A stretch of DNA of 64,000 bases, from the NCBI RefSeq assembly GCF_009295825.1, contig NZ_WHKF01000001.1:124001-188000 (forward strand), given 5' to 3'. The position numbers were made by a program, and so were the translations under genes. This document shows, piece after piece, positions 19,494 to 43,780 of the stretch. Position 1 is the stretch's first letter. The number at the start of each line of letters is the position of its first letter. Source of the stretch: Marinifilum sp. N1E240. Its GTDB lineage: Bacteria; Bacteroidota; Bacteroidia; Bacteroidales; Marinifilaceae. Under the pieces are notes generated by a model, which ran no database searches, was not told the DNA's origin, and worked only from the letters and a program-made list of their open reading frames with translations.

Positions 19494-20589
19494 TTATTTT
19501 TCTTCTCCTGAGAATTCCATCAGGTATGCTTTAATGAATCCATCTAAATCTCCATCCATTACGGCTTGAACATTCGATGATTCATGACTGGTTCTTACAT
19601 CTTTTACCAGTTTGTACGGTTGCATAACGTATGATCTGATTTGAGATCCCCATTCAATTTTCATTTTGGAGCCTTCAATTTTGTCAATCTCTTCCTGACG
19701 TTTTCTTAATTCCAGTTCGTACAACTGAGATTTTAGCAAACGAAGTGCATTTTCACGATTACCTAATTGTGAACGACTTTCGGTATTTTCAATAATGATT
19801 CCGGTAGGAGCATGTCGCAATCGAACTCCTGTTTCTACTTTATTTACATTCTGTCCACCTGCACCACCAGATCGGAATGTATCCCAAGAGATATCTGCAT
19901 TGTTGATTTCAATTTCTATTGAATCATCAATAGCAGGATAAACATAGACCGATGCAAAGGAAGTCATGCGTTTATTAGCGGCATTGAAAGGAGAGAGACG
20001 TACCAAACGGTGAACGCCATTTTCTGATTTCAAGTATCCGTAAGCAAAATCGCCTTCAAATTCTAAAGTTGCCGACTTAATTCCTGCTTCATCACCTTCC
20101 TGATATTCCAGTTGCTTTACCTTATATCCATGAGATTCACCATATCGCAGATACATACGGTGTAACATGTCTGCCCAGTCGCAACTTTCGGTTCCACCAG
20201 CACCTGCATTAATTTTAAGAATAGCACCTAATTTATCTTCGTCTTTGCGAAGCATGTTTTTTAGCTCTAACTCTTCAATTAAGGTTTCGGTAACGGCAAA
20301 TTGTTCATCAACTTCTTCAGGTGAGGCTTCACCTTCTTTTGCAAAATCGTATAAAACAGCTAAATCTTCAACCGATTCTTTAACTTTTTCGTAGGATTCA
20401 ACCCAGGACTTTAGTCCTTTTACCAATTTCATTTGAACTTCGGCTTCTTTAGGATTGTCCCAAAATCCTGGAGCTTGAGTTCTCATTTCTTCTTCTTGTA
20501 TCTGAATTAATTTGGCATCAATGTCAAAGATACCTCCTTAGCGCTTCCGTGCGCTCCGCTAAACTCTTTAGCTGGTCTGTTGTAATCAT
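19494..20589 (-). CDS. prfB: peptide chain release factor 2, programmed +1 frameshift
   Basis: Releases completed chains at UGA and UAA. The main reading frame shows RF2's SPF tripeptide (LVRLSPFNAANK) and GGQ catalytic motif (RSGGAGGQNVNK). Translation starts at 20589 with MITTDQLKSLAERTEALRRYL, meets an in-frame TGA at 20526-20524, and must shift +1 to continue as DIDAKLIQIQEEE and onward, giving about 364 residues. The signal is classical: AGGAGG, then CTTTGAC. This is the known autoregulatory loop in which low RF2 favours the shift. A partial copy of the start region lies upstream. Confidence 0.97.
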
Positions 20590-20622
20590 TCTAGAAATTT
20601 ATAATTGAGATGTAAAGGTAAT
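20502..20622 (-). repeat. prfB leader repeat, copy A (functional)
   Basis: The 121-bp unit spans the prfB 5' UTR, start codon, first 21 codons, frameshift signal and eight following codons. It is a direct repeat of 20728-20858 with a 105-bp spacer between. Confidence 0.9.
20523..20538 (-). promoter_or_regulatory. prfB programmed +1 frameshift site
   Basis: On the minus strand: a Shine-Dalgarno-like AGGAGG (20538-20533), then TAT and the slippery CTT TGA C (20529-20523). The P-site Leu-tRNA slips from CUU to UUU, and GAC is then decoded. Spacing matches bacterial RF2 sites. Confidence 0.95.
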
Positions 20623-20706
20623 AAACAAAGAGTAATGAACAATCTGAAATGAATAGGTAATAGTATTGTACGAAGAAAAATGATTAGACGACGATCGTGT
20701 AAAGAT

Positions 20707-20824
20707 TTAGAAATTGATTAAGAAAAACTGAATTAATTTGGCATCAATGTCAAAGATACCTCCGATTACAACTTAGGGCTTCCGTACGATCAGCTATACT
20801 CTTTAGCTGGTCTGTTGTAATCAT
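20707..20824 (-). pseudogene. truncated duplicate of the prfB 5' end
   Basis: Starts with ATG at 20824 and encodes MITTDQLKSIADRTEALSCNRRYL before TGA at 20752-20750. The CTTTGAC and the GGAGG are retained, so a +1 shift could occur; it would add DIDAKLIQFFLINF before TAA at 20709-20707. No further RF2 sequence follows. It is either a remnant of tandem duplication or a small upstream reading frame with a working shift signal. Confidence 0.75.
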
Positions 20825-20858
20825 TCTAGAAATTTAATAATTGAGATGTAAAGGTAAT
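20728..20858 (-). repeat. prfB leader repeat, copy B
   Basis: A 131-bp near-copy of 20502-20622, with long identical blocks at both ends and around the start codon and frameshift site. A 9-nt insertion (TTGTAATCG on the minus strand) sits just before the SD-like GGAGG, and scattered substitutions occur in the middle. Confidence 0.9.
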
Positions 20859-21193
20859 GAAAAGTACTGGAAGTGTATTGTTACAACTTTTAAGTCATGA
20901 TGAAATAGTTAATTAATCATAAAATTCAACAAGCGTTCTCGTTTATGCGCTTCAATAATTAAACAAAGCACTTAGAAAGTTAGCCTATTTATGTTTGTTA
21001 TTGTCTGATTGATATTTGTTTAATTTATAATCCGGGCAGAAAAATAAAATTGGATTTTGAAAGTATAAAGAACTTAAAATCGAACATTTAATATTCTTTA
21101 TTTACTAAATATTTTAAAAATAATTGTTCCATAAAATTAAAATGTTGGAACATCTTATTATTGTCCATGTTACTAATTATTAAAAAGAAAAAA
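20859..21193. other. intergenic region before the set A operon
   Basis: No gene seen. A plus-strand TATGTTTG at 20990-20997 matches the -7 consensus but lies about 200 bp from the first set A gene. An inverted repeat occupies 21125-21152, close to that gene. Confidence 0.4.
21125..21152. repeat. inverted repeat upstream of set A operon
   Basis: Seven-base arms TGTTCCA (21125-21131) and TGGAACA (21146-21152), centre-to-centre about 21 bp or two helical turns, ending 41 bp before the first start codon. The geometry suits a dimeric repressor or activator site. Confidence 0.4.
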
Positions 21194-22060
21194 ATGAAAA
21201 AACTATCTGTACTCTTAACACTAATGATGATGGTGAGCATTTTATTTGCTCAGGAAAAAAAAGAAGTTGTGTTGATTGGTGATATTAAGTGTTCTTATAA
21301 GAATTCTGAACAGTTTAAAAAAAATGTTCATGATGTAATTGTTCAAGCTTTTGTAGAAAAAGGATTACATGATGTGATTGATATTAACACTTTGTCAGCA
21401 GTTGGTCAGGAAATTTATCGTCAATCAGGTGAAACAGCATTGAACGAAGACAATATGAGACGTTTAAGCGAAGCTGGAGTAAAAGGTGCAGATTGGATTG
21501 TGACAGGTACACTATCTAATTATGATGCTGTTCCTGTTAAAAATGACAAAGGACAATTGACTGGTTACAATGGGAAATTAAATTTCGTATTCAAGGTAAC
21601 CAATTTAAAAGATGGCACTCAAAAAGGTGTAGCTGATATTGCTTGTTCTACTTTTTTATCTGAGAAAACAAAGGATGCAGCAATTATGAAAGCTGTGAAG
21701 AATGCGAAAGATAAAGTGATAAAGAAAATCAAAGGAATTTTTCCAGTTGTTGCTGAAATCGTTGAAATTACAGCAGAGAAAAAAGGTGCTGCTAAAACTT
21801 TATTGATTGAAGCTGGAACTGCTTTAGGTGTTCAAAAAGGTGATCAGTTTAAGATTTGTGAAGAGAAAATGTTTAGAGGGAAAAAACGCATTGTTGAAAT
21901 TGGTAGAATTAAGGTTGTGGATGTGCAAGGTGATGATTTTGCAGAGTGCAAGGTTGTAAAAGGTGGTGATAAAATTTTAAAAGATTTTAATGCTGAACTA
22001 AAGATTTTTGCAGAAATGATTGAAAGAACAGGCGGATTACCAGGTGGTCTAAAGTTATAA
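21194..22060 (+). CDS. secreted CsgG/FlgT-like protein (set A)
   Basis: 288 residues with an N-terminal signal peptide (MKKLSVLLTLMMMVSILFAQ). The first part resembles the CsgG/LpoB fold, which detects or assembles envelope lipoprotein complexes (ADWIVTGTLSNYDAV strand region). The last third (EAGTALGVQKGDQFKIC..RIVEIGRIKVVDVQGD) resembles the FlgT C-terminal domain. I chose the start at 21194 because a preceding ATG only adds a Lys-rich stretch. First gene of a tight run of seven; the next start is 15 nt on. Confidence 0.75.
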   Translation: MKKLSVLLTLMMMVSILFAQEKKEVVLIGDIKCSYKNSEQFKKNVHDVIVQAFVEKGLHDVIDINTLSAVGQEIYRQSGETALNEDNMRRLSEAGVKGADWIVTGTLSNYDAVPVKNDKGQLTGYNGKLNFVFKVTNLKDGTQKGVADIACSTFLSEKTKDAAIMKAVKNAKDKVIKKIKGIFPVVAEIVEITAEKKGAAKTLLIEAGTALGVQKGDQFKICEEKMFRGKKRIVEIGRIKVVDVQGDDFAECKVVKGGDKILKDFNAELKIFAEMIERTGGLPGGLKL

Positions 22061-22075
22061 TACAGAACCAACAAT

Positions 22076-22975
22076 ATGAAAAGAAAATTAGTTTCAAAAT
22101 TAATTCTTGTTCTGTTCTCTTTATTTATTTCCATTCCTAATGGAAAAGCTCAAAGCTCAAATATAGAGGAAGTTCAATTGCCAACTATCATGGTTATTCC
22201 TTACAAAAAGGATGGAGATTCTTACAAGAATATTCTTCAGAATGATTTTGACAAGAGAATAGCTGTGGCATCGGTGCAGGAAGGATTCAATCAAAAAGGA
22301 ATTACAACCATCGATTTTGAAGCCAAATTGAATGCGGCTATTCGTTCGGCTAATTTTGAGATGAATGATGCCCAGACTGTAGATAAGCAATTGATTCGAA
22401 ATTCAGGTGCTGATGTTTACGTGTCGGTAGATATAAAGAAGGATTTTGCAGCAAATGGCAACAGAGTTGCACTGGTTTTAAAGGCTTACGAAACCGCTTC
22501 AGGAAATGTGTTAGCCAGTAAGCAAACCTGGTCGCCACGTTTTCGAACTTCGGCAATAGATAAATTGACTTCTCTGGCAATTAAAATCATGATGGATGAT
22601 TTTTTGGCACAGATCAACACCAACTTTCAGAAGAAGGTGAGCAATGGAAATACCGTTGTATTGAATGTTTCTATTGCCAGCGATTCTATGACAGATATGG
22701 ATAGTGAGTTGGGTAACGATCAGCTTCCACTTTCGGACGTGTTGCGTCTTTGGGTTAAAAAGAATGCACATAAAGGTCGTTATCATGTTCAGGGCTCTGT
22801 AGCCGAAGCGGTTATTTTCGATCAGATTCAAGTGCCTAGCAAAGATGAAAATGGAAATACATACAGTGTAAGCGACTTTGCTTTTAATCTGTGGGATTAT
22901 TTGAGAAGTGATATTGGCATTGCTTGCAAAAAGCGAGTGGATGGAAATACCATTTACATTACCATTCTGGAATAA
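22076..22975 (+). CDS. DUF6175-like secreted protein (set A)
   Basis: 299 residues with a signal peptide ending near GKAQ. The body begins PTIMVIPYKKDGDSYKNIL, followed by segments that recur in CsgG-like proteins (NSGADVYVSVDIK). It resembles proteins annotated DUF6175 in Bacteroidota, with no enzymatic motif. Its position, right behind the CsgG-like gene and in front of the LPP20-LamG gene, argues for a shared envelope complex. Confidence 0.6.
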   Translation: MKRKLVSKLILVLFSLFISIPNGKAQSSNIEEVQLPTIMVIPYKKDGDSYKNILQNDFDKRIAVASVQEGFNQKGITTIDFEAKLNAAIRSANFEMNDAQTVDKQLIRNSGADVYVSVDIKKDFAANGNRVALVLKAYETASGNVLASKQTWSPRFRTSAIDKLTSLAIKIMMDDFLAQINTNFQKKVSNGNTVVLNVSIASDSMTDMDSELGNDQLPLSDVLRLWVKKNAHKGRYHVQGSVAEAVIFDQIQVPSKDENGNTYSVSDFAFNLWDYLRSDIGIACKKRVDGNTIYITILE

Positions 22976-23000
22976 GCGTAAACACATAAAACAAATAACA

Positions 23001-25124
23001 ATGTTGAGTTTTCAAGTGTTGAATATAAAAGGTGCTTTGCCGGGGAAAATTATTTCCCTGGCTTTGTGCCTGATATTATTGGGATCTGTTAAGGCAAAAG
23101 CACAAAACCGACCACAATGGATTACAAGTAGACCAATAAATACAATGTATTATATTGGAATTGGATCTGCTTCAAAATCGGAAACCGATTACATGAAAAT
23201 TGCCAAACAAAAGGCTTTAAGTGATTTGATTTCGGAAATTGAAGTGAAAGTAGCTAGTAATTCTCTTTTAAATTCTTTGGATGATAATGGGAATATATCC
23301 TCTTATTTTCAGGAGAATATTAAAATTGAAGCTAAGCGTACAATTGAAGATTACCAATTGGTAGAATCCTGGGAAGGAGATTCTGAATATTGGGTTTACT
23401 ATCAGTTGAATAAATATAGTTATCAGGAGAAAGAGCGTATCCGAATTGAGAATATGCAGGATAAGGCATACGACTACCTTCAGAAAGGAAATGCCGGAAA
23501 AAATTCAGGAGAAGTTTCCGCTTCTATTTATAATTATTTGGAAGGTTTGAAGCTGATACAGGCTGATTTAAATAAGAATTTGCCATATCAGAAAAATGGT
23601 CAAACCATTTATTTAGGTAATGAATTGTATGCTGGTTTAAACAATGTATTTACAGGAGTTCAGATAAAAGCTGATCCTTCATCGGTAAAAGGACAAGCTT
23701 TTCAGGCGGTAAAAGATCAAATTCAGATTAGAGTTAGCAGAGGAATGCAAGTTCTTGCTAATTTGCCATTACATGTCGAATTCATTTCCGGATCAGGTGA
23801 ATTGAATCATGGGTTGATAACCAATGAATCAGGAATTGCTCATTTGCAAGTTTTGAATATTAGTAGCAAGCAAAAGCAACAATTGGTCTTGATAAAACCA
23901 GATTTGAAGAAACTTTGCTCCGATAGAAAAAATAAGTTGTTGCATGGTATTTTAAACCAGTTGAAATCTTTACCTGAAACGCAGGTAAGTATTAGTCTCG
24001 AAAGTGCAACCATTAAAGCTTTTTTAAAACAAAGTCAGGATGGTAATTCTGCTTTAGTGAAATCCGTTAAGAGAATTTTGAGTAACAACTATTTCAATTT
24101 TGTGCCTAGCGAATCGCTTGCTGATGTTGTGGTGGAATTGGATGAGGAATTCAAAAAAGGAGGAAAAGTGAATGGTGAAATGTATAACATGCAGGAGTAT
24201 TTCTCATCGCTTAGTTTGCAGATTACCAATCGTTATAGCAAAGAAACGGTGTTTAGTTATGGCGTGAACGATTTACGCACCTTAGCACCTGAAAGTACTT
24301 CGCCAAAAACAGCTCGAATGTCGGCAAGTAGAAGTATCATGAAAAAAATGCAGCGTAAATTAATTCAAGAATTAAAGAAGCTGCAAATGATCATTGATAA
24401 GTCGATAGTGGTTCCTGAAGTTGTGCCAAATGTGCAAAGAACAGAACCGAGCAGAAGTCAGACCACAAGTACTCAAAGTCCAAAAACGATTGTTACTTCG
24501 GGCTTGTTGGCTTACTATACCTTTAATGATGGAACGGGGAGAAACAGTACAGGAATAAACAATTACAATGCATTGGTTGAAGGTGAAAATGCACCTTTAT
24601 GCGTTACAAGCACTTTGACTGGAGAAGGTAAGGCAGCTCAGTTTAGTGGCAATTCATACTTAAGTATTCCTGAACATCCTATTCAACAATGGACTGCCTA
24701 TTCCATTAGTACATGGGTGAAAACAACTTCGGGAGGAGCGGTATTGGGTCGAAAAGGATCCGGACCTACCATTTTAGGAACAACCATTCAAAATCAGTTA
24801 TTCTATCAGAAAAATCATTACGGTCGTTACGACACGTTTAGTTTCGATACGGATAAAATGCTGCTGGATTCTCAATGGCACATGCTCACCTTAACTGTTG
24901 AGGTTTTACAAAACGGATCACGTTCCAGATTGTTTGTTGATGGGCAAATGGTTTTGGTCGAAAATACTCAATTGAATGATAAGATAAAAGGTGGCGAAGG
25001 AGCTTATATCGGTTACGATCCCGGATCGAAAAGATATTTCACTGGTGAAATTGACAATTTGAGGATTTACAATCGAAAATTAAGAGATGAAGAAATTCAG
25101 CAGCTTTATCGCAGTCAGCAGTAA
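23001..25124 (+). CDS. LPP20-like protein fused to a LamG domain (set A)
   Basis: 707 residues starting MLSFQVLNIKG at 23001, with a signal peptide to about residue 35 (KAKAQ). An LPP20-type domain follows (PQWITSRPINTMYYIGIGSA, then AKQKALSDLISEIEVKVASNS), then a linker with an Ig-like patch (GSGELNHGLITNESGIAHLQ), and from about residue 500 a LamG/concanavalin-like domain (GLLAYYTFNDGTG, STWVKT, FTGEIDNLRIYNRKLRDEEIQQLY). The LamG part may bind sugar or protein. The N-terminal two-thirds is clearly paralogous to 43781-45190, which lacks LamG. Confidence 0.8.
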   Translation: MLSFQVLNIKGALPGKIISLALCLILLGSVKAKAQNRPQWITSRPINTMYYIGIGSASKSETDYMKIAKQKALSDLISEIEVKVASNSLLNSLDDNGNISSYFQENIKIEAKRTIEDYQLVESWEGDSEYWVYYQLNKYSYQEKERIRIENMQDKAYDYLQKGNAGKNSGEVSASIYNYLEGLKLIQADLNKNLPYQKNGQTIYLGNELYAGLNNVFTGVQIKADPSSVKGQAFQAVKDQIQIRVSRGMQVLANLPLHVEFISGSGELNHGLITNESGIAHLQVLNISSKQKQQLVLIKPDLKKLCSDRKNKLLHGILNQLKSLPETQVSISLESATIKAFLKQSQDGNSALVKSVKRILSNNYFNFVPSESLADVVVELDEEFKKGGKVNGEMYNMQEYFSSLSLQITNRYSKETVFSYGVNDLRTLAPESTSPKTARMSASRSIMKKMQRKLIQELKKLQMIIDKSIVVPEVVPNVQRTEPSRSQTTSTQSPKTIVTSGLLAYYTFNDGTGRNSTGINNYNALVEGENAPLCVTSTLTGEGKAAQFSGNSYLSIPEHPIQQWTAYSISTWVKTTSGGAVLGRKGSGPTILGTTIQNQLFYQKNHYGRYDTFSFDTDKMLLDSQWHMLTLTVEVLQNGSRSRLFVDGQMVLVENTQLNDKIKGGEGAYIGYDPGSKRYFTGEIDNLRIYNRKLRDEEIQQLYRSQQ

Positions 25125-25169
25125 GAATATCAATAAGTAATACAATTAAATCTTTAAAATTTACTAATA

Positions 25170-25739
25170 ATGAAAAAACGTTTTTATCAATTTGCAGCAG
25201 TAGTAATGATGGGTGCCATGTTCGCATGTTCGGCACCACAACAAGTAGCACAAGTACAGCAACCAGATGAGGTTGATTTTGATGTGCCTTGTACAGGTCC
25301 TGATTTTAGAACCAACGCGGAATATTTTAGAGCATCGGCAGATGGTTTAAGTATGAATATGGATATCGCTAAGAAAATGGCATATACCAATGCACGTGCC
25401 GAGTTGGCAACAGCTATTCAGGCTAAGGTTGAGCGAGTAACTGATAACTATTCTTCATCGCATAATTTCAATGGTAACGAAGAAGCTAAACAACGTTTCC
25501 AGGATCTTCCAAGAATAGTAGTAAAGCAAGTAGTAAGCGGGACACGTATCATTTGCGAGAAAATGAAAAAAACCAAAGAAGGTAAATTTCATTGCTATGT
25601 TGCTATGGAATTGGCAGGTGATGAGATCGTGAATTCTATGAAAGACAGAATCAGTGGAGATGACAAATTGAAAATTGATTTTGAATACGAGAAATTTAAA
25701 AAAGAACTAAAAGAGGAGATGGCTAAAGGAAATTCATAA
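25170..25739 (+). CDS. small lipoprotein, paralogue of 43124-43720 (set A)
   Basis: 189 residues with a lipobox (MFACSAP, Cys20). The body has a cysteine early (VPCTGPDF), the block AYTNARAELATAIQAKVERVTDNY and a highly charged C-terminus (DDKLKIDFEYEKFKKELKEEM). The 43124-43720 lipoprotein aligns over its whole length (CTGSDY, TNARAELATLIQSTVQ, DDKLKVDYDYEKFKK), so the two are duplicates. Function unknown. Confidence 0.75.
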   Translation: MKKRFYQFAAVVMMGAMFACSAPQQVAQVQQPDEVDFDVPCTGPDFRTNAEYFRASADGLSMNMDIAKKMAYTNARAELATAIQAKVERVTDNYSSSHNFNGNEEAKQRFQDLPRIVVKQVVSGTRIICEKMKKTKEGKFHCYVAMELAGDEIVNSMKDRISGDDKLKIDFEYEKFKKELKEEMAKGNS

Positions 25740-25761
25740 TCCTTTTTATTCCATTAAAAAT

Positions 25762-26727
25762 ATGCATATCAAATTATTGTTGATATCGATTCTAATTATT
25801 TTAACAGTTTTTTCTACCAAAGGACAGGAGATAGACTCTTGTCTTTTGGAGAAAGACTCTATTGCTGATGTTCTGTTAACAAAGCATCAGAGTTTTCCAA
25901 ATTGGTTGGTAGAACAGGCATTGGAAAATGAATGTTGCATAGGAATTTCAGATCCTTATTTGGATACCGATTTGGCTCTCGAACAAGCCAAAATTAGAGC
26001 GGTTGCCATTGCCAGCTTGAAAGAGGAATTGGCTTACCGATCTATAGTTGATAATTACGTATCGGATAAAGGAGGAAAATACGCAAATACCAAATTTGTG
26101 AGCTTAACCAATATGGTTTCGATAGCACATATTGATTTAAAATCTATTGAAGTTTTAAAAACTTATACATCACCATTCGATGAGGTCTTTGTATTGATAA
26201 AAAAACCAAAATTCAACACTTCAGATTCTTTAAAAGATACTACCAATACAATAAAAATAACTGCTGATTTACTTCTAAGTGAAACCAAAGGAAGAGGTGA
26301 GGACAGTTATAATTTTATAAAGTTTCACATTCAGAATCCGGATCAATATCCTATTAAAAAGCTCAATTACTATTCTTACAATACCAAGTCGGGAAAGAAT
26401 ATTGTTTCAAAAATCAACCAGTTCGAAATAAAATTCCCAAGTGGAATGTTTCGTTATCAGCCTTATCAGGCTCAGGATACCATTCATTATCAAAATGGAT
26501 TTATCGAGGCATCCTTAAACTACTCATTTTGGAATGCTTATTTGGATGTGATTTTAAACAATCTATTACTGATGACTAAAGATGGAGGAGAAGTAAAATC
26601 TTTAGGAGATAAATACAATCAGATTTTTAAAAACATGTTTCGGGTGGTTGATTACCAGAAAATGCATTTTCGAATTTCGAACTTAAAAGTGAAAGGCAAC
26701 AGGTTGTATATGAAAACCACATTGTAA
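25762..26727 (+). CDS. LPP20-like secreted protein (set A)
   Basis: 321 residues with a signal peptide (VFSTKGQ). The region around residues 45-110 (FPNWLVEQALENECCIGISDPYLDTDLALEQAKIR, with AKIRAVAIASLKEELAYR) has the LPP20 pattern: Trp-Leu, a Gly-Ile-Ser turn and an Ala-rich helix. The second half is distinctive and unrecognised. It sits 22 nt after the small lipoprotein gene. Confidence 0.6.
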   Translation: MHIKLLLISILIILTVFSTKGQEIDSCLLEKDSIADVLLTKHQSFPNWLVEQALENECCIGISDPYLDTDLALEQAKIRAVAIASLKEELAYRSIVDNYVSDKGGKYANTKFVSLTNMVSIAHIDLKSIEVLKTYTSPFDEVFVLIKKPKFNTSDSLKDTTNTIKITADLLLSETKGRGEDSYNFIKFHIQNPDQYPIKKLNYYSYNTKSGKNIVSKINQFEIKFPSGMFRYQPYQAQDTIHYQNGFIEASLNYSFWNAYLDVILNNLLLMTKDGGEVKSLGDKYNQIFKNMFRVVDYQKMHFRISNLKVKGNRLYMKTTL

Positions 26728-26747
26728 GCCATAAAATCCTTAATATC

Positions 26748-27794
26748 ATGAAGAAATTTACTTTAATAACAGGTTTTTTACTAGTAATTCTTGGCTTTTG
26801 TACCATATCAATTAAGGCGCAAGAGGTTGAATCATTCGAAGAATTTAAGAAGAAAGAAAAAGCAAAATTTCAACAGTTTAAAGAAGAATACAAACGACAA
26901 TTCGAAGCTTTTAAAAAGAACGAACAGGATTGGAATAAGGAAATATTGGGTGTGGATGTTGAAACACCAGTATCGGAACGTGTAGAGGAAAAAGATAAGG
27001 ATTTTATTACCAAACCTTCGGTACCAAAATATGTGAATTTAAGTGCAAGTTTGGATGATGAAATTGAGCAAATAAAACGTAAGGTTGAAAAGATTACAGT
27101 TCAGGATTTAACAGAGGCTGAACCGATGAAATCTCCTGAAATAAAACCAGAGCCAATAGCAGATGCAAAATCTAATAAACAGGCAGATCAGTTCGCAGAG
27201 AAAGCACGAAAAATGTCTAATCCGGTAAGCAGCGCTTCCAGAGAGGAATTGAAAGTTGTCAATGTAGATTTGAATCCCACTAAAATGGGAAATCCTGTCG
27301 CAAGTGCATCCACAAATACAAGTACGATTGCGAATCCAGGTGCAAAAACTGCCACGAATATAGAAAATCACAAAGTTAGTTTAATAGAGATTGAAAAGCG
27401 CAGTATTCCTTCAACCAAGCCAATTTTAGCCAAGTTCCGATTGAGTTCAAAATTTGGGAATAGATTTCACCCAACTTTGTACCGTTGGCGCTTTCATGGT
27501 GGCGTAGATATGGCATGTCCAAAGGGAACAGAAATACACATACCAGCCGATGGCGTAGTTGTAAAATCGGGCTGGAATGGAGGCTATGGCAATTACATTA
27601 AGGTGAAGCATGGCAATGGTTACGAAACAGTTTACGGTCATCTCTCAAAAGTAAGTGTAAAAAAAGGACAAAAAGTTAAAAAAGGTGATGTAATAGGCAA
27701 AGTGGGAAGTACTGGTCGATCGACAGGAGCACATTTGCATTACGAAATCATAAAAAATAAAAAACGAGTGAATCCAGAACGATTTTTTGGATAG
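26748..27794 (+). CDS. secreted M23 (LytM-type) peptidase (set A)
   Basis: 348 residues. Signal peptide, a Lys/Glu-rich coiled region (EFKKKEKAKFQQFKEEYKRQ) and a Ser/Asn-rich linker come before a C-terminal M23 domain. The zinc sites are intact: H250 and D254 in FHGGVDMACPKG, and H329-L-H331 in GAHLHYE. The GYGNYIKVKHGNGYETVYGHLS strand pair is typical. Such enzymes cut peptidoglycan or act as regulators of cutting. Here it sits among envelope lipoproteins, which suggests wall remodelling as part of the set. Confidence 0.88.
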   Translation: MKKFTLITGFLLVILGFCTISIKAQEVESFEEFKKKEKAKFQQFKEEYKRQFEAFKKNEQDWNKEILGVDVETPVSERVEEKDKDFITKPSVPKYVNLSASLDDEIEQIKRKVEKITVQDLTEAEPMKSPEIKPEPIADAKSNKQADQFAEKARKMSNPVSSASREELKVVNVDLNPTKMGNPVASASTNTSTIANPGAKTATNIENHKVSLIEIEKRSIPSTKPILAKFRLSSKFGNRFHPTLYRWRFHGGVDMACPKGTEIHIPADGVVVKSGWNGGYGNYIKVKHGNGYETVYGHLSKVSVKKGQKVKKGDVIGKVGSTGRSTGAHLHYEIIKNKKRVNPERFFG

Positions 27795-27827
27795 GAAAAC
27801 GAAATCTCAACTCAACATTCTTACATC

Positions 27828-28502
27828 ATGATTACGAAACTATTTAAGCTACTTATACCACTCTTACTTTATGCCTTTGGACGTGAATTCATTGCTACTG
27901 TGCAGATGATTTCATTCGCTGATTTGTATCAGAAAATCTTCCTGATAGCCTTAGGAGGTGGATTCTTATTTACAACTCTTTTTGTGAAAGCACACGGATA
28001 TTTGGCGATACTATCTCATGAATTAACACACAATACACTTGGCGTTTTAACCTTTAATAAACCAGTAGGCTTAAATGTTGAAGCCAATATGGGTGGTGTT
28101 TTTATGTTTCAGGGTAAACACAATATAATGTCGGTGTTATCGCCTTATTTTTTTCCGCTAATCACGGTATTCATTTTTCCAATTTATTTCATTTTGGCAA
28201 GTTCGGGAGCCGAAGTTTATTTTGGTTTATTAGGCGCATCCTTGGGTTTTTCATTTTCAATTGGAATACGTCAGGCACATCGTCATCAACCCGATTTTCA
28301 GGTTTATGGAGTCACTTGGTCCTACCTGATTATATTGTTTTTTCAGATTGTAATATTTGGTCTGATGATATCATTTGTAATTGGTCGAATGCCAATGCTT
28401 ATCAGTTTTGTAAAAATGAGTGCAGATCACATTATAGAACTGTATGATATTTTAAAGGCTTTGGTGATGATGGGAATAGATATAATATCAAGTAATTCAT
28501 AA
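27828..28502 (+). CDS. multi-pass HExxH membrane protein (set A)
   Basis: 224 residues with about six hydrophobic segments. The third helix boundary holds SHELTHNTLG (H64-E65-x-x-H68), the zinc-binding pattern of membrane metallopeptidases of the M50 type. A third ligand is not obvious; IRQAHRHQPDF in the loop is a candidate. No signal peptide or soluble domain is present. It closes the tight run of seven genes (33 nt after the M23 gene). Protease function is an inference. Confidence 0.6.
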   Translation: MITKLFKLLIPLLLYAFGREFIATVQMISFADLYQKIFLIALGGGFLFTTLFVKAHGYLAILSHELTHNTLGVLTFNKPVGLNVEANMGGVFMFQGKHNIMSVLSPYFFPLITVFIFPIYFILASSGAEVYFGLLGASLGFSFSIGIRQAHRHQPDFQVYGVTWSYLIILFFQIVIFGLMISFVIGRMPMLISFVKMSADHIIELYDILKALVMMGIDIISSNS

Positions 28503-28618
28503 TTAGACTACTTAATTAAATCAGAATATGATCTAAAATTAAAATGGAGTTCAGACACCATATAAAAAAACGAGGCGCTACCGAAAAGCCTTACGAGTAG
28601 GATGTAAACATTTAAGCT

Positions 28619-29074
28619 ATGAGATTTTTAGGAAACATTATTTGGCATTTTCCATTCTTTGGATTTGTATCGGCATTTTTCACCTTTTTGTTGGGAGGAT
28701 TGCTTGTAATCACTGTAATTGGCGCACCTATTGGATTGGGTTTAATTCAGTTGTCAAAATTTCTTCTGTCGCCTTTTTCGAGTTCAATGATAGACAATAA
28801 AGAGTTAAACGCAGAACCCAATAAAGCATGGGAAGCATTTGGCTTAATTGTAAGAATATTGTATTTCCCATTCGGCTTATTCCTTACGGTTATCACCTTA
28901 TTCCAAATTGTTGGATTGTTTGTTTCCATAGTTGGAATTCCAGTAGCCTTGGTATTAGCTAAATCTCTAGGAACTTATTTAAATCCGGTAAATAAAACAT
29001 GTGTTTCTACATCGGTAGCAAAAGAATTGGAAAGCCGTAAAGCAAAAGCTCAGGTTGATGCTATGGTAGGATAA
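28619..29074 (+). CDS. YccF-like inner membrane protein
   Basis: 151 residues. Two symmetric hydrophobic halves with the repeated pattern GGLLVITVIGAPIGLGLIQLSKF and FQIVGLFVSIVGIPVALVLAKSL match the YccF family of small membrane proteins of unknown role. It is 116 nt downstream of the HExxH gene and in the same orientation. Confidence 0.75.
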   Translation: MRFLGNIIWHFPFFGFVSAFFTFLLGGLLVITVIGAPIGLGLIQLSKFLLSPFSSSMIDNKELNAEPNKAWEAFGLIVRILYFPFGLFLTVITLFQIVGLFVSIVGIPVALVLAKSLGTYLNPVNKTCVSTSVAKELESRKAKAQVDAMVG

Positions 29075-29219
29075 TATCTTTAGTAAGTAACTCTGGTTGT
29101 ATGCTGGAGCTATTAATACGATTTAGACCCCAAAACTCTTATTCTTTTTTTAGAATTAATGCGACTTAAAAATGATGTGATAATAAGAAATTTACTTTAA
29201 CTAAACCAAAACCCAAACC

Positions 29220-30236
29220 ATGAAAAAATTAATCCTATTTGCTCTGTTTGCAGTTCTTTGCGAGACTTATTCAGTTCAGGCAAATACTTTCATTCAAACT
29301 GAAGAGCAAACCGAAATTACAAATATTGAACAGGCACAACCAATTGATAAAGCTGTTCCTGAAAAAGGATTTGATTGGATGCAATTTATTTTTGCAGGCA
29401 GTTATTTGTTAGGTGTATTTGTCTTGTTTCCACTGGTAGTTTATACCAATTACCAGGAAAAAATGCTAGGCGATGTAAATCCGGATAAGGTGAAAATTCT
29501 TGAAAATTTATCGGAAGAAGAAAGAAACAACAGAGCCGAACATATTCTGGTTACCATTGAAGAAAAGTTAACTGCGTTTACCGATGATGATGGTTACGAA
29601 ATGATTACCATAACAAAAGGATCACAGGCAAGATTCATGAGACATGGATTGAATTATATCAATAAAAGATTATGCCCTACTGATCCTATTATACAGGAGC
29701 GGGTTGAAGAATTCACGAATGTTTATTTCGACAGAACAAAAAGACAATACACCGGCTCGAATTGGATATTGGGTTGTGCCATTGGAATATTGGTGTTTAT
29801 GGGTTTTATGGATATTGGAATGTTACTTTCAAGCTTTACCTTAATTCATATTATTGGAATTACTTTTTATTACCTGTCGAGCAGAACAGCAAAATATGCT
29901 TTGGAAAAAAGATTGGAGACTTTTAAAACGAAAAAGCTGGGATTTATTGGAGGTGTAATGGCTGCCCTATTTGCAGGTTTCTCTATTAAAGAGTACGTAA
30001 GTGTAAATGGAGGTCCTTGGAAAAGAGATCACGAATCGGAAGGAACATCAGCCTTGGTTTTAATTTTAGTGATTGTAATGGTTGCCTTTTTTGTTGGATT
30101 CCTGGTGGCATTTTTTGGAATTATCAACTTCGTGATTAATTACTCAGTATCCTTTATCAGTCCATTAAATACACCGGAAAAATGGTATGCTACTAAATTT
30201 GAGAAACAAGCAGAAGTTGTTGTTGCTCAACATTGA
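29220..30236 (+). CDS. membrane protein with cytoplasmic loop, unknown
   Basis: 338 residues. A signal-like N-terminus is followed by a helix (about 56-75), a soluble section (about 80-180) and four or more C-terminal helices (LLSSFTLIHIIGITFYYLSS; VALVLILVIVMVAFFVGFLVAFF region). I do not recognise the family. It ends the set A neighbourhood and is followed by a hairpin at 30501-30529. Confidence 0.6.
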   Translation: MKKLILFALFAVLCETYSVQANTFIQTEEQTEITNIEQAQPIDKAVPEKGFDWMQFIFAGSYLLGVFVLFPLVVYTNYQEKMLGDVNPDKVKILENLSEEERNNRAEHILVTIEEKLTAFTDDDGYEMITITKGSQARFMRHGLNYINKRLCPTDPIIQERVEEFTNVYFDRTKRQYTGSNWILGCAIGILVFMGFMDIGMLLSSFTLIHIIGITFYYLSSRTAKYALEKRLETFKTKKLGFIGGVMAALFAGFSIKEYVSVNGGPWKRDHESEGTSALVLILVIVMVAFFVGFLVAFFGIINFVINYSVSFISPLNTPEKWYATKFEKQAEVVVAQH

Positions 30237-30613
30237 TTTAAGCAGAAATTTGCATGTATATCATACTTTGATAAAATATTACTTACAACTTTAATGCTTA
30301 ACATGGAAAGGAGTCGACCAATTTGGTGATTTGATTTAGTAGATAGAGATTTGGTTGTTGCCATCTTGGTTGATTCTTACCAGATAAATTGCAGTATTAA
30401 TGGAAGAAGACGGTGAATTTTCACTACTACTACATTCTTCATTATGGTTTTGGGATTGGATTTTCTATTCACAAATAAAATTGCAGATGTACCAAAACCA
30501 AGCGCCACTTCCTGTTAGGGAGTGGTGCTCTGATTTAAGAATATTAAAATCGCTTAAACAAATTAGCTTTATCAAGCATTTGTAGTGAATACAAAATTTA
30601 AACAATAAATTAT
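30237..30613. other. intergenic region after set A
   Basis: No supported gene; a 61-codon reading frame at 30400-30585 has no signal or family support. The region contains the hairpin at 30501-30529. Confidence 0.5.
30501..30529 (+). terminator. hairpin similar to 31396-31426
   Basis: Arms AGCGCCACTTCC and GGGAGTGGTGCT around a short loop; the following sequence has no long T-run. An almost identical hairpin occurs 890 bp downstream, on either side of the gene at 30614-31345. Confidence 0.55.
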
Positions 30614-31345
30614 ATGACAAATAAAATTAACCTGATGAAAAAAATTGATCAGATATTAAAATTTAGAAAGCAAATTATTATTGCAGCAAGCGTACTAGTT
30701 GTGATTTATATTTTGATTACTATCCCATGGACTAATGAGCAAAGGGCAAAACAAGAATGTTTAGACTATGTAAAATCACGCTATGACAATATTTCTGTAA
30801 ATCACTTTAATTTGCTTTATGAAGCAAGTCCAAAAAATGATTTAGATTATACCGAATTTGATTATAATAGAAAGCTAATTAAAATTAATTATTCTCTTGC
30901 TGGCATAGAAGAAAAAAAAAGGACGGGCAAGTTGCCGTTTATGAATAATATGGCTGTGCGAGAAAGTGATTTAATTAAAGGTAAAAAAGAATTAGAAAAT
31001 CGTTTGAATTTAATTGATGAAATAAGAACAAAAAAAACTGAATTATCAGAAGAAGTATATGCTTATTATGCGGAACTTGAAGTATGTAAAAAATCCTCAA
31101 GAGGAAGTAAAAGTAAAAAGTATTTTAATTTTGTATTTGATAAATCCTGGAAAATAAAACAAGTAAGAAAATATGAAATTACCCCTGATTACAGCAATTA
31201 TCCTAATGGTGATAAATTAAGAGAAAGAATGCCTTATATAGAAACGTTTTCTTTTCAGGAAAATATTATTGATAGTATTGTATCTAGTGCATTAAATTGT
31301 GAAGTAAGACGTATTGTTCACCACCCATGGTATTGGGAGAAATAA
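30614..31345 (+). CDS. membrane-anchored protein, unknown
   Basis: 243 residues with an N-terminal anchor (about residues 21-38: IIIAASVLVVIYILIT) and a soluble outer part rich in Lys, Glu and Asn. Three cysteines occur (CLDY, VCKKS, NCEVRR). No family recognised. The codon use is very AT-rich compared with neighbours. It lies between two near-identical hairpins, so it may be an inserted cassette. Confidence 0.5.
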   Translation: MTNKINLMKKIDQILKFRKQIIIAASVLVVIYILITIPWTNEQRAKQECLDYVKSRYDNISVNHFNLLYEASPKNDLDYTEFDYNRKLIKINYSLAGIEEKKRTGKLPFMNNMAVRESDLIKGKKELENRLNLIDEIRTKKTELSEEVYAYYAELEVCKKSSRGSKSKKYFNFVFDKSWKIKQVRKYEITPDYSNYPNGDKLRERMPYIETFSFQENIIDSIVSSALNCEVRRIVHHPWYWEK

Positions 31346-31395
31346 TTTATAGGAATTAGAAGAAGTATAATATTTTTCGTTGTAAAATACAAATT

Positions 31396-31426
31396 AAGCG
31401 CCACTTCCGTAATGGGAGTGGCGCTT
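31396..31426 (+). terminator. rho-independent terminator
   Basis: Arms AAGCGCCACTTCC and GGGAGTGGCGCTT (one G-T pair) with a 5-nt loop, followed by TTATTCTTGT. It ends the unknown gene at 30614-31345 and faces the convergent phosphodiesterase gene. Confidence 0.75.
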
Positions 31427-31462
31427 TTATTCTTGTGTTTTAGAAGCAAATTCGATATGCCT

Positions 31463-39238: not shown

Positions 39239-40162
39239 ATGAATATTCCGATGAAACAAATCCTGCTATTTTTCTCTGTTTTTTTAACATCCTTAACTCT
39301 TCTTGGTCAAATAAAAAAAGTTGCCATGCTCGAACCTATTGCTCAAACCGAAGGGGTAACGGTAATGGTTAAAGGAATGGTTCGAGGAGAACTTACTAAA
39401 TCGATTAGTAAAGAACCTGGTTTTAATGCCTTTACTCGCACCGATATCGATAAAATGATGAAAGAGCTGAAGTTTCAAGATTCAGGTATGGTTAATGACG
39501 AACAGAGAATTAAATTGGGTCAACTTTCAGGAGCTGATTATGTGTGTGTATCGAAAGTGACAAAAGATGGAAATGCCTATTATTTGGAAGCATTTTTAGT
39601 GCATTTGGAAAGTGGAAGAATAGACAATCCTGCCTCAGCTTTTGTTGAAGGTGGTTATGCATCTGTAAATAAAGCCTGTCAGAAAATTGCCGGTGAAATG
39701 GTAGGGAAAAAGGTGGATGTGCAAATACCAATTGTTGAAAAGAAAATAGATGCGAAATATCAAAAAGAAGCTAGCTCTAAAATGACAGTCTCTACCAAAC
39801 AACCATTTGAAATCTATAATGTGTCGGTGAACTTTAAAAACCATAAAATAATGGTAATTGATAAAGATTTTACCAAAGGAATGACAAAAGGTGAGGCTGT
39901 AAAAGCATGTAAGAATTTAAATTATGGTGGATATAACGATTGGCGATTACCTACCCAACAGGAGATAATTGTGCTTCATCAGCACAGGCTTGAATTAACA
40001 GGATTAAATCATAAACAATACTGGTATACTGAAAGAGGTAGAATTGGGAGTTTAAATTTTAAAAGTTTTGCTTCTAGATATGAATCATCCCGAAAGAATG
40101 CCTGGTGGAAAGGTTATGATGATACAAGATTGGGAGTTAGATGTGTAAGAACTGTAAATTAA
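39239..40162 (+). CDS. CsgG-like protein with DUF1566 C-terminal domain (set B)
   Basis: 307 residues. Signal peptide (to about GQIKK), then a CsgG-like domain (KKVAMLEPIAQTEGVTV, SGADYVCVSKVTKDG; residues about 22-170), and a C-terminal DUF1566 domain (GGYNDWRLPTQQEI, RLGVRCVRTVN). I set the start at 39239, the first ATG of the frame; 39251 is also possible. It overlaps in role with the set A CsgG/FlgT-like protein. The next gene starts 4 nt after its stop. Confidence 0.75.
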   Translation: MNIPMKQILLFFSVFLTSLTLLGQIKKVAMLEPIAQTEGVTVMVKGMVRGELTKSISKEPGFNAFTRTDIDKMMKELKFQDSGMVNDEQRIKLGQLSGADYVCVSKVTKDGNAYYLEAFLVHLESGRIDNPASAFVEGGYASVNKACQKIAGEMVGKKVDVQIPIVEKKIDAKYQKEASSKMTVSTKQPFEIYNVSVNFKNHKIMVIDKDFTKGMTKGEAVKACKNLNYGGYNDWRLPTQQEIIVLHQHRLELTGLNHKQYWYTERGRIGSLNFKSFASRYESSRKNAWWKGYDDTRLGVRCVRTVN

Positions 40163-40166
40163 GTTT

Positions 40167-41222
40167 ATGATGAAGTGTGTTAAGTTGTTAATATTGATTT
40201 TTATGGGACAATTAACTTATGCTCAATCGACAGATTGGATGACAGAAGATTACCGTAGGTTAAATTTCCCGAATAATAATTACCTAACAGCATTTGTTAG
40301 TGGTGAAAAGAATCAGGATGAAGAATTATCTGATGCGATTGCTCGAATTAAAGAATTAGCCAAAGAAGAAATCTCTTCTAATATCTTAACTACGATAAAA
40401 AGCAGTTCTGAATTAAATTTAGTAAGTAGAGTAGATGAAGGAGCAGAAAAGATTAACCAATCGTATTCTACAAGTATTAAATCATCAAGCTTTACAAAAA
40501 TTAATGGAATTCATGTAGATACTCATGTACAAAAAGGGAAAAAGAGAAAACAGCTGATTTATGCTTTTGCGTATGTTAGAAAAGAAGATTTGATAAGCTA
40601 TTATAAAAAGGATATTAAGAAAAAAATGAGTGAGCTTGAATCTTTTATTAATACAGCGGATCAACACATTAAAAATCTTGAAAATAGTAAAGCAAAGGAA
40701 AAATTTTTAGCTGCAAGAAGAATGTATAATGAAATTGATTTTGATTACGAAATTTTGATGGCACTTGATGGTGAACTACTAAGTTTAGGGATTAGTGTAG
40801 ATGATATTATTAAAGTGAAAGAAGAAGTTGAAAAGGGTTTACACGCTATTAAATCTGGACCGAGCTTTTATTTACAAATACAATCTGAAATTTTTAATAC
40901 GAAAACTTCCGTTCTTGCGAACAAATTAAAGGCAGAGTTGGCAGAAAGTAAATATTCTTATACTAGACTAATTGCTAATGCAGATTGGTTAATAAGAATT
41001 AATGCCAAGGCTCGAAAGCACAACAATAATTATGGTACATACATTAGCTATGTGGATGCTACGGTTTGTTTTGAGAAAACATTTAATAAAGAAGAAGTAT
41101 ATCAGAATACAATAAAACAAAAGGGCGTTAGTATGAATAATTTTAAAGATGCATCGGAATTGGCTTACGAAGATCTTGCTAAAAAAATCAAGGACTTAAT
41201 GATTGAATTTTGTACAGATTAA
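40167..41222 (+). CDS. LPP20-like secreted protein (set B)
   Basis: 351 residues with a signal peptide (to LTYAQ). Motif-bearing N-terminus: FPNNNYLTAFVSGEKNQDEELSDAIARIKELAKEEIS and a Ser-rich stretch of the kind seen in LPP20-like proteins. The remainder is predicted mostly helical. It forms a two-gene unit with the CsgG-DUF1566 gene and converges on the LuxR-type regulator (gap 8 nt). Confidence 0.6.
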   Translation: MMKCVKLLILIFMGQLTYAQSTDWMTEDYRRLNFPNNNYLTAFVSGEKNQDEELSDAIARIKELAKEEISSNILTTIKSSSELNLVSRVDEGAEKINQSYSTSIKSSSFTKINGIHVDTHVQKGKKRKQLIYAFAYVRKEDLISYYKKDIKKKMSELESFINTADQHIKNLENSKAKEKFLAARRMYNEIDFDYEILMALDGELLSLGISVDDIIKVKEEVEKGLHAIKSGPSFYLQIQSEIFNTKTSVLANKLKAELAESKYSYTRLIANADWLIRINAKARKHNNNYGTYISYVDATVCFEKTFNKEEVYQNTIKQKGVSMNNFKDASELAYEDLAKKIKDLMIEFCTD

Positions 41223-41230
41223 AAGTACCA

Positions 41231-41890
41231 TTAGTCATTCATTGTCCTATTCCAAAAATGCTTTAAACCATCCTTACTTTTCACATTTAACTTACGGTAA
41301 ATATTGGAGAGGTGCTTTTTCATGGTGTTTAGTCGAATACCTAATTTGTTTGCCAATAAATCGTTACTACTGGTATTTTCTTCGGAGATTAACTGAAGCG
41401 CTTTTTTCTCTGTTTTGGTTAGCGACTTTAGTTTTTCGTAATCGGTACTGTAGTATTTGCTTTCCTGTTCTTCAATTGCTTTTTTGAACTTTAGATAAGA
41501 GCTGGATTCATAAAAAACATCATCAGGCTGATCTAGCACTGCATCAACAGTCTCAAGCATTTCCTTTTCGCTGGCATCTTTGTTTAGATACGAATTAAAA
41601 CCTGCTTCGCGAATGTCTTTAAGAACCTGGTTAATTTTATGGCTGGTGTAAGCAATGCATTTTATATTGCTCTTTTTCTGTTTCACTTCTTTTACAAAGG
41701 AGATCCCATCTTCCTGATTGTTGTATTCCAAATCAACAATCATAAATTCCACATCTCGATTTTGAATAAAAGGCATTGCTTTCGACGGAGAACTGAATCC
41801 TTCCACACGAGCTTCGGGAAACATTTCTTTTAAAAGTTTCTCACTGGCTGTTCTCAATAAAGTGTGATCTTCTACGACTAATATATTCAT
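41231..41890 (-). CDS. LuxR-type response regulator (set B)
   Basis: 219 residues. Receiver domain MNILVVEDHTLLR with D53 (MIVDLEYN) as phospho-acceptor, and a C-terminal helix-turn-helix (LTKTEKKALQLISEENTSSNDLLANKLGIRLNTMKKHLSNIYRKL). I place the start at 41890; a longer frame to 41956 lacks family support. The gene is convergent with the LPP20-like gene. It is the natural partner of the HisKA_3 kinase at 37240-39060. Confidence 0.88.
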   Translation of the reverse strand: MNILVVEDHTLLRTASEKLLKEMFPEARVEGFSSPSKAMPFIQNRDVEFMIVDLEYNNQEDGISFVKEVKQKKSNIKCIAYTSHKINQVLKDIREAGFNSYLNKDASEKEMLETVDAVLDQPDDVFYESSSYLKFKKAIEEQESKYYSTDYEKLKSLTKTEKKALQLISEENTSSNDLLANKLGIRLNTMKKHLSNIYRKLNVKSKDGLKHFWNRTMND

Positions 41891-42138
41891 TTTAGAAAAT
41901 AATGGTATTAAGCTAGTGGGGTAATCGAAAATAGAAATTAATAGTGGAATATTCATTTACTAGTTAATTTATTTTATGAATAGCATGATTCTGGGTTTTA
42001 ATCATTGAATTGCTTGTTTGGAGAGTTCAAAATTGGCTTTTGATAATTTGCTAGCCAGGATTTGTACTACTTCGGGTTATTTTAAAGATCATCAGGAATG
42101 GTGAATTTCGCAGGTATAAACCTTTAAAACTATCTGCT

Positions 42139-42879
42139 ATGTCAAACTATTTAATCGTCGACACCGACAAAAAAGCCAGTAATGACCTTAAATTAAAATT
42201 AAGAGAGGTGGAATCTAAGTGTGGTATATATCAGGCTTATACTATAGAGGAGGCACTTTTGCTTTATGTCTTACACAAGCCTCAAGTAATTTTTTTAGAA
42301 GTGAAATTAAAGAATGATAATGGCTTTGAATTGATACATCAATTGCTGGAATTAGGGGAACATCCGAAGTTTGCTTTTGTAACTAAGAGTAAAGACTTTA
42401 CGATTAAAGCCATTCGATCATCAGCTGTAGATTATTTACTGAAACCTGTAAACAAGGAAGATCTGCAATTTTGTTTGAACAGAGTTCAGTGTTTAGAAGA
42501 TGAGGAGTTGGAGAAGCAAAAAATGTCGGAATTATTCTTGAAATTGAGAATTAACAAAAGAGTAAGAATAAATACCCGAGTGGGTTTTGAAGTAATTAAA
42601 CCTGAAGAAATTTTATATTGTAAGGCGGATCGAAACTATACCGATATCAAGTTGGTGAGTGGATCTTGTTTAACCACTTCGAACACACTAAGCAGTGTGA
42701 TTCAACAATTGCCAACAGAATTGTTCTTTAGAATCGGTCGATCGGCTACGATTAATCTGGATTATTTAAAATCGGTAAATCGCAAAGAAAAGCAGTGTTT
42801 GTTGTGTTGTGATAATGAAATTTACAAATTGCCAATGTCACCGAATCGTGTTCATCAATTATCAGAAGTATTGCGGTAA
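42139..42879 (+). CDS. LytTR response regulator with Asp-to-Glu receiver (set B)
   Basis: 246 residues. Receiver domain YLIVDTDKKAS with Glu54 in the position of the phospho-acceptor Asp (VIFLEVKLKNDNGFEL, normally LD), and the acidic pair reduced to D8-T9. The conserved Lys is in DYLLKPV. The C-terminal LytTR DNA-binding domain (VRINTRVGFEVIKPEEILYCKADRNYTDI) is intact. The Glu may mimic phosphorylation, so the protein may be constitutively active or phosphorylation-independent. Three nt later a small Cys-containing gene starts. Confidence 0.85.
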   Translation: MSNYLIVDTDKKASNDLKLKLREVESKCGIYQAYTIEEALLLYVLHKPQVIFLEVKLKNDNGFELIHQLLELGEHPKFAFVTKSKDFTIKAIRSSAVDYLLKPVNKEDLQFCLNRVQCLEDEELEKQKMSELFLKLRINKRVRINTRVGFEVIKPEEILYCKADRNYTDIKLVSGSCLTTSNTLSSVIQQLPTELFFRIGRSATINLDYLKSVNRKEKQCLLCCDNEIYKLPMSPNRVHQLSEVLR

Positions 42880-42882
42880 GTT

Positions 42883-43068
42883 ATGAAGATATTGAAGGAT
42901 TTATTTGACTTGCTAAACGATAGGGGATTTTCCATTTATTGTAATAGTTGTCGAGAGGCAATAGATAAAGTGGAAATTATTCCGTATCAAAAAGAATTGG
43001 TTTGCAAATATGGCGGGCATCGGAATAGTATAGCGATTGATCGGGATGGGAATATTATTCGGATATAA
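42883..43068 (+). CDS. small Cys-containing protein, unknown
   Basis: 61 residues, starting 3 nt after the LytTR gene stop. The sequence holds a C-x2-C pair (IYCNSCREAI) and a later Cys (LVCKYGGHRN), suggesting a metal site or zinc ribbon. No family recognised. Coupled translation with the regulator is likely if it is real. It ends at a strong terminator. Confidence 0.5.
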   Translation: MKILKDLFDLLNDRGFSIYCNSCREAIDKVEIIPYQKELVCKYGGHRNSIAIDRDGNIIRI

Positions 43069-43070
43069 AA

Positions 43071-43105
43071 AAACAGCGCATGAAGAATTTCTCCATGCGC
43101 CGTTT
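43071..43105. terminator. bidirectional terminator, LytTR unit / lipoprotein
   Basis: Arms around GCGCATGGAGAA / TTCTCCATGCGC with one mismatch, loop about 3 nt, and T-runs on both sides (AAAAAAAC on the left, GTTTAT on the right). It sits between the convergent small gene and the set B lipoprotein. Confidence 0.75.
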
Positions 43106-43123
43106 ATAGATGTGTATAATTTC

Positions 43124-43720: not shown

Positions 43721-43780
43721 GTGTGTTGAATTTTTGTTGTAATGGCAAATTAACAAATGCTCATTACTAATTATTCATTT

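Follow-up and report, generated by a model that had tools for sequence, protein, structure and literature searches.

The window considered here is a stretch of 64,000 nucleotides from Marinifilum sp. N1E240 (contig NZ_WHKF01000001.1, positions 124,001 to 188,000), part of a genome of 4.98 Mb in 65 contigs, and it contains a run of seven genes at window positions 21194 to 28502 of which the first four recur in conserved order in several genera of the Bacteroidales. These four encode a secreted FlgT-like protein (gene 1), a DUF6175 protein (gene 2) and two proteins of LPP20 type (genes 3 and 4). They form the core of the set; in other words, the seven genes are not one equal block. Whether genes 1–4, together with genes 5 and 6 and a gene 9 further downstream, make up a periplasmic assembly that is associated with the outer membrane, consists of H-ring-type parts and a wall-modifying enzyme and is not flagellar is, in our judgement, evenly balanced.

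The original prediction, made from the sequence alone, described seven plus-strand genes separated by gaps of 15–45 nt. This layout is confirmed by the open reading frames (ORFs) and by the intergenic distances of genes 1–7 (15, 25, 45, 22, 20 and 33 nt), with ATG taken as the start of genes 1 and 3, for which the ORF list has longer TTG or GTG starts. The labels given to genes 2, 3 and 6 likewise stand, all being over the Pfam cut-offs. Gene 2 (22076..22975) is a short form of DUF6175 (PF19672, 240.1 bits against a cut-off of 23); gene 3 (23001..25124) encodes a secreted LPP20 protein (PF02169, 43.2 against 25.9 bits) with a C-terminal LamG-type domain (Laminin_G_3, 75.2 bits, cut-off 27.6), the latter present in four of ten aligned rows, namely the window, Labilibaculum and two Marinifilum; and gene 6 (26748..27794) joins a secreted, charged leader to an M23 peptidase (131.3 against 28.7 bits) with its HxxxD and HxH motifs in place as HGGVD and HLH. 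Gene 1 (21194..22060) had been called CsgG/FlgT-like, and only the second half of this name survives: CsgG (PF03783) scores under its cut-off (14.8 against 20.8 bits) and by reading there is no cysteine among the first 32 residues, hence no lipobox, whereas FlgT-ring chains take the first two places in the structural search described below, FlgT_C itself scoring under the Pfam cut-off (17.5 against 27). Gene 5 (25762..26727), originally LPP20-like, is a secreted protein for which Pfam gives nothing up to E 1; its likeness to LPP20 is faint at most.

Gene 4 (25170..25739) encodes an LPP20-like protein with a lipobox-type cysteine. Its LPP20 score is under the cut-off (17.0 against 25.9 bits), and its profile finds Lpp20 in the PDB (5ok8, E 7e-4) and, at E 0.15, the chain 9hmf_C ('Lipoprotein, putative'), which we take for FlgP. 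The lipobox, and the signal peptides of genes 1, 2, 3, 5 and 6, were assigned by reading, not by a predictor. In Bacteroidetes an acidic run after the lipoprotein cysteine marks export to the cell surface; gene 4, by reading, has no such run, and a periplasmic face is therefore suggested.

The evidence that carries the grouping is gene order. The loci behind the profiles for genes 1, 3, 4 and 5 had themselves been retrieved through DUF6175, such that counts in the same genomes are partly circular, a circularity that is offset by independent counts. The large genome searches, moreover, scored part of the first-look candidates (6–8 per genome for gene 1 and five for gene 3), and absences in them are therefore soft. 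Among 115 relatives, DUF6175 was found in 31 and gene 1 in 16; 13 of the 14 strong gene-1 places (E < 1e-90, in 13 genomes) lie at most 5 kb from DUF6175, a count that is largely circular in that 12 of the 14 places or contigs supplied the profile. The exception is a second locus (L117) of genome G023, which holds genes 1, 4 and 5 and a gene-6-like gene. In a sample of the order (295 genomes), gene 1 was found in 15 and gene 3 in 42, and 14 of the 16 gene-1 places (E < 1e-30) are within 5 kb of DUF6175; without the two places that contributed rows to the gene 1 profile, the count is 12 of 14. All five gene-3 matches with E < 1e-100 in these genomes adjoin genes 1 and 2.

A gene-3 profile scan of named genomes gave 35 loci, 19 of which carry genes 1, 2 and 3. 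The order 1-2-3-4 is kept in 16 of the 19; in Culturomica it is 2-3-4-1, and the other two contigs break off within gene 3. Seven (L068, L070, L071, L072, L076, L077 and L089) are contigs that had earlier been fetched through DUF6175; the other 12, which include Bacteroides, Mediterranea and Muribaculaceae records, are independent of how the set was found and modelled. The genera represented among the 19 include Labilibaculum, Marinifilum, Odoribacter, Bacteroides, Mediterranea, Butyricimonas and Culturomica. The remaining 16 loci hold distant gene-3 relatives (24–33% identity); a gene-4 relative adjoins gene 3 in eight of them, on the other strand in two, and neither gene 1 nor gene 2 was seen in any of the 16, though several of the contigs are short. 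The original prediction had named a synteny search as its own refutation test. The linkage is upheld for genes 1–4, and for genes 5 and 6 in fewer genomes, and with the order conserved in several genera a chance neighbourhood can be set aside.

The same order is visible in the public annotation of Bacteroides finegoldii NZ_OY725910.1 (hypothetical, DUF6175, LPP20, LPP20, hypothetical, hypothetical), which gives no function or system for DUF6175 (PF19672) or LPP20. No paper on DUF6175 or on the 'LPP20 family lipoprotein' was found in the open-licence literature, although a description elsewhere is possible. The B. finegoldii record is labelled plasmid 8 and has genes 1–6 in order next to genes of housekeeping type (dprA, peptidase U32), neighbours that suggest a possible chromosomal fragment. 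A further gene 1 relative, in L116 (9259–10122; genome G035), has one internal stop in its match and lies in a genome with no DUF6175 match, and is possibly a relic of the cluster.

Structure models of gene 1 and of one long-form DUF6175 were compared by Foldseek with 350,542 chains. The AlphaFold2 model of gene 1 (12 rows, mean predicted local distance difference test (pLDDT) score 78.8, predicted template modelling (pTM) score 0.67) finds first 8z5n_0, a chain of 352 residues from the LPHT ring (E 4.7e-16) which we take to be FlgT, and second FlgT itself (3w1e, E 1.8e-15), the next matches being 7rxu (Cj1090c, E 7.4e-7) and PelC (E 1.2e-6). Alignment to 3w1e with VIA-align 2 gives Z 12.4 over 224 residues (model residues 17–279) at a root-mean-square deviation of 10.3, which we read as matching domains that would be differently set in the two proteins. 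The model of the long DUF6175, from an Odoribacter laneus contig of G023 (18 rows, pLDDT 83.8, pTM 0.51), has the same two chains at ranks 1 and 2 (8z5n_0, E 2.8e-7; 3w1e, E 3.8e-7). From first to last aligned residue, gene 1 covers FlgT 92–355 and the long DUF6175 FlgT 1–264, and the latter therefore resembles the N and M domains of FlgT and gene 1 its M and C domains. Genes 1 and 2 gave no match to each other in BLASTP. According to a published account, an SHS2-like fold is common to FlgP, Lpp20 and FlgT, of which FlgP and FlgT build rings (PMC12222027).

The closest known systems include flagellar ones. The Vibrio H ring is reported to consist of FlgT and FlgO, with the lipoprotein FlgP likely associated (PMC6504787). 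The locus resembles it in that two FlgT-like proteins and LPP20-type (lipo)proteins are encoded together with export signals, and differs in dividing the FlgT domains over two genes and in adding a LamG domain, gene 5, a wall enzyme and a membrane protein. It also differs in its host: FliF (PF01514), the only flagellar family searched, has no match in the genome of the locus (completeness 99.99), while four of 14 control genomes were positive, such that a flagellum is not expected and the locus is therefore not taken for a flagellar ring. The LPP20-type lipoprotein of gene 4 likewise recalls the FlgP basal disc of Campylobacter and Helicobacter and Lpp20, the locus again being without a motor.

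On this basis an assembly can be sketched. The lipid anchor of gene 4 would sit in the outer membrane, on its inner leaflet. The LPP20 subunits (genes 3 and 4, perhaps 5) and the FlgT-like proteins (genes 1 and 2) may form an oligomer, as a ring or scaffold, to which gene 6 would be recruited by its leader, cutting or modifying cross-links so that the assembly sits in, or couples to, the wall, and gene 9 would be the inner-membrane end. The role that we favour is that of a tether or collar joining the outer membrane and the wall locally. The earlier suggestion of one envelope machine is thus reasonable for genes 1–6 and gene 9 and is not supported for gene 7, which is confined to close relatives (five of 115 genomes); nothing speaks for the accompanying proposal of envelope surveillance. 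An outer-membrane lipoprotein ring encoded beside flgP is reported to protect the barrier during rotation (PMC11756786), and it serves as precedent for an envelope role, not as evidence for this locus.

Several observations weigh against such an assembly. The proposed ring is inferred from the genes and from the models of gene 1 and the long DUF6175, and not from an observed ring or a predicted oligomer. TM-scores to FlgT are low (0.22–0.39), because the domain arrangement differs; its three domains are split between two genes here (1 and 2), with no single protein having all of them; and gene 2 of the window is without the N domain of about 120 residues found in the long DUF6175. The sequence profile of gene 1 gives non-significant matches in the PDB (LpoB E 0.18, FlgT E 0.53). 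Gene 5 aligns with gene 3 at an hhalign probability of 11% and with gene 4 at 0.4%, too weak for homology with either to be claimed. In the taxonomic record, DUF6175 is far commoner than gene 1 (67 against 15 of the 295 genomes of the order), gene 1 occurs without DUF6175 at two of 16 places, and a gene 4 match from a plasmid collection (L067) is without genes 1–3. Over the phylum (345 genomes; gene 1 in 12, DUF6175 in 16), three of six gene-1 places with E < 1e-20 are near DUF6175 and three, all of one family, are away from it, the six including the window's own locus and one match that contains stops. To these are to be added the fit of gene 1 to PelC, the other partners that DUF6175 has in a second type of cluster, and the weakness of the leader matches of gene 6, all given below.

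An alternative that we consider unlikely, albeit the best of those weighed, is a regulator set of LpoB type, in which gene 1 and DUF6175 activate wall synthases or hydrolases from the outer-membrane side, gene 6 being the wall enzyme so regulated and no large ring being built. The gene 1 relative in L041 is over the LpoB cut-off (25.9 against 22.3; that in L040 is under it, at 18.9), LpoB is the best, though non-significant, PDB profile match of gene 1 itself, and M23 or SLT genes lie nearby. In the window, on the other hand, gene 1 has no match to LpoB (PF13036) up to E 1, and its model has a FlgT-like, SH3-like C domain on a protein with no lipobox. Moreover, we know of no LpoB system with partners of LPP20 type.

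Less probable again is an export apparatus of CsgG/PelC type that passes polysaccharide or protein through the outer membrane. The alpha/beta domain of these proteins and of LpoB is common to the models of gene 1 and DUF6175, and the TolB_N-type domain of gene 1 taken alone fits PelC (Z 14.1 over 118 residues) better than FlgT, and fits CsgG well too (Z 12.3); some proteins in the gene 1 slot of the second cluster type, moreover, end in what reads as a beta-barrel-like stretch. Against this, the CsgG, PelC and LpoB proteins differ from gene 1 in its SH3-like C domain, missing lipobox and CsgG score under the cut-off. No cognate substrate or enzyme is recognised for the locus, none of the ten genes scanned being recognisable as a polysaccharide synthase, an exporter or a substrate of curli type, and the two members of CsgG over the cut-off in this genome (211.9 and 147.3 bits) are elsewhere. 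A CsgG pore formed by gene 1 was rejected on the score, the lipobox and the placing of FlgT-ring chains above CsgG in Foldseek.

Returning to the assembly of H-ring-type parts, its first gene appears to have a history of its own. Between the window and Labilibaculum, gene 1 is 44% identical and genes 2, 3 and 4 are 79, 90 and 85% identical, the main DNA match resuming at about 22167, within gene 2; dN/dS (the ratio of non-synonymous to synonymous substitution rates) against the same copy is 0.41 for gene 1 and 0.05–0.13 for genes 2–9. The two copies of gene 1 are not simple orthologues. Against Marinifilum sp. D737, the window has 87% identity in gene 1, 65% in gene 3 and 77% in gene 4, and between M. 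breve and D737, which carry a long and a short gene 2, respectively, the values are 68% for gene 1 and 95% for gene 3. The four short-form copies (the window and three Marinifilum) have gene 1 sequences that are 87–94% alike, and the two long-form copies (Labilibaculum and M. breve) only 41%. The Labilibaculum contig comes from a metagenome-assembled genome (MAG), and the Marinifilum records are not labelled as MAGs. Most simply, gene 1 would have been transferred between lineages in one unit with the first part of gene 2 (21194–22167).

Downstream of the core the set becomes less uniform. Gene 5 is present in seven of the 19 named loci, its slot being shared with Bacteroides, Mediterranea and a second Odoribacter locus; in 74 relatives it is found in nine genomes, at five strong places that are all beside gene 4 (four of them profile rows, the fifth L117) and at five weaker ones (E 1.9e-18 to 1.8e-7). 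In the gene 6 slot, the M23 domain of the window gives way to a transglutaminase-like domain in Bacteroides and Odoribacter, again preceded by a leader that is similar. In B. xylanisolvens XB1A (L083), the gene after gene 5 encodes a protein of 525 residues, and a homologue of gene 9 (pairwise E 4e-16) comes next. The N-terminal part of the 525-residue protein resembles the leader of gene 6 (pairwise E 0.007), and its end reads as transglutaminase-like, with Cys, His and Asp, at a Pfam E of only 0.095. When a profile of five Marinifilum and Labilibaculum leaders was used to search the fetched loci (3678 stop-to-stop ORFs), it found, at E ≤ 0.05, two proteins beyond its own kind, both in the gene 6 slot (L117, E 0.002; L073, E 0.008), and no match in reversed sequences. 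These matches are weak, and the profile misses L083 and the B. finegoldii locus (L066) at E 0.05, where the leader is recognised by alignment only. That genes 1–4 do nothing jointly and are neighbours by inheritance alone, slow rearrangement having kept them together, could explain the synteny of genes 6–9 among Marinifilum and Labilibaculum but is very improbable, given that the order of genes 1–4 is kept between genera with differing flanks and that slots are kept while their proteins are exchanged (the gene 6 enzyme, the gene 1/2 cassette).

Gene 7 (27828..28502) encodes a hydrophobic protein, membrane-bound by reading, with HELTH and a conserved QPD. The HExxH motif of the original description is thus present, and is invariant in three of three close sequences, while Peptidase_M50B scores under its cut-off (12.9 against 26 bits). 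Of its five genomes, which include that of the window, four have it on the contig of the core and one has it adjoining gene 6 on a separate contig, and this restriction to close relatives led to its rejection as a core part. Gene 8 (28619..29074), encoding a YccF-type membrane protein, begins 116 nt after gene 7, occurs among the named loci with Marinifilum and Labilibaculum only, and was likewise rejected as a core part; it is probably a local neighbour outside the machine. Gene 9 (29220..30236), a membrane protein by reading, follows 145 nt later; it and gene 8 are likewise on the plus strand.

Other enzymes and large proteins accompany related loci. In L041, of Butyricimonas type, a tight run upstream of genes 1–4 (731–7744) encodes an SLT transglycosylase and zinc-ribbon proteins, one with a Peptidase_C25 match that is weak yet over the cut-off; similar runs are present in L042–L044, the proteins scanned being those of L041. 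In Marinifilum flexuosum (L038, 13624–18498), a Sortilin-Vps10/GEVED/Por_Secre_tail protein of 1624 residues lies between genes 5 and 6.

In L046–L052, DUF6175 belongs to a second type of cluster, in which it is accompanied by a protein of about 440–590 residues, a separate gene of about 170 residues, proteins of about 325 and 430 residues and a gene-4 relative, not every component being present in each locus. The gene of about 170 residues, upstream of DUF6175, corresponds to the N domain of the long DUF6175: its profile matches the long forms, at best with E 1.8e-11, and, in L051, a fused gene (E 8.6e-48), with no reversed matches. An hhalign comparison of this separate gene with DUF6175 was without result, a probable reason being that gaps make up most of the N columns of the DUF6175 alignment. 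Mixed clusters are found in L045, L103, L105, L110, L111, L114 and L115. Between the two cluster types, hhalign is weak for the gene 1 slots and moderate for the LPP20 slots (E 9e-5, probability 60%), and the equivalence of slots therefore rests mainly on position. Such fission and fusion, and the replacement of proteins within slots, suggest that the parts function jointly.

A broader proposal, which we advance tentatively and with less conviction than the assembly itself, is that of a non-flagellar ring machine of the periplasm, recurrent in Bacteroidales and built of FlgT-like and LPP20-like subunits, with a leader-recruited, exchangeable wall enzyme and a mobile upstream cassette, the parts of the H ring and basal disc having been recruited from an older family of envelope scaffolds. 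To our knowledge FlgT, FlgO and FlgP are flagellar parts only. Were the proposal correct, the same fold classes in a flagellum-free group, commensal Bacteroides included, would bear on the origin of such rings, and a genetically tractable system would be at hand for asking which task such a ring performs at the outer membrane when there is no motor. DUF6175 would, moreover, gain a first testable role. The recurrent order may mean an undescribed structure built at the outer membrane.

The window contains a second set of this kind, at 39239–45190. It comprises a protein with LpoB over the cut-off and CsgG and Lcl_C under it (39239–40162), one with LPP20 under the cut-off (40167–41222) and, on the minus strand, a gene 3 paralogue with LPP20 over the cut-off (43781–45190) followed by a gene 4 paralogue (43124–43720).

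As regards transcription signals, the Bacteroides-type promoter pattern matches seven times in the window against 6.6 expected, with none upstream of gene 1, and a sigma-70-type scan gave a number of sites not above chance. Four terminator-like sites were found in 20487–31460 (5.3 expected in shuffles), the longest being a plus-strand stem of 14 pairs at 31396..31426. Finally, within 20500–20850, upstream of a release-factor-like gene on the minus strand, a near-identical stretch is seen by eye to occur twice (about 20502–20620 and 20731–20850).

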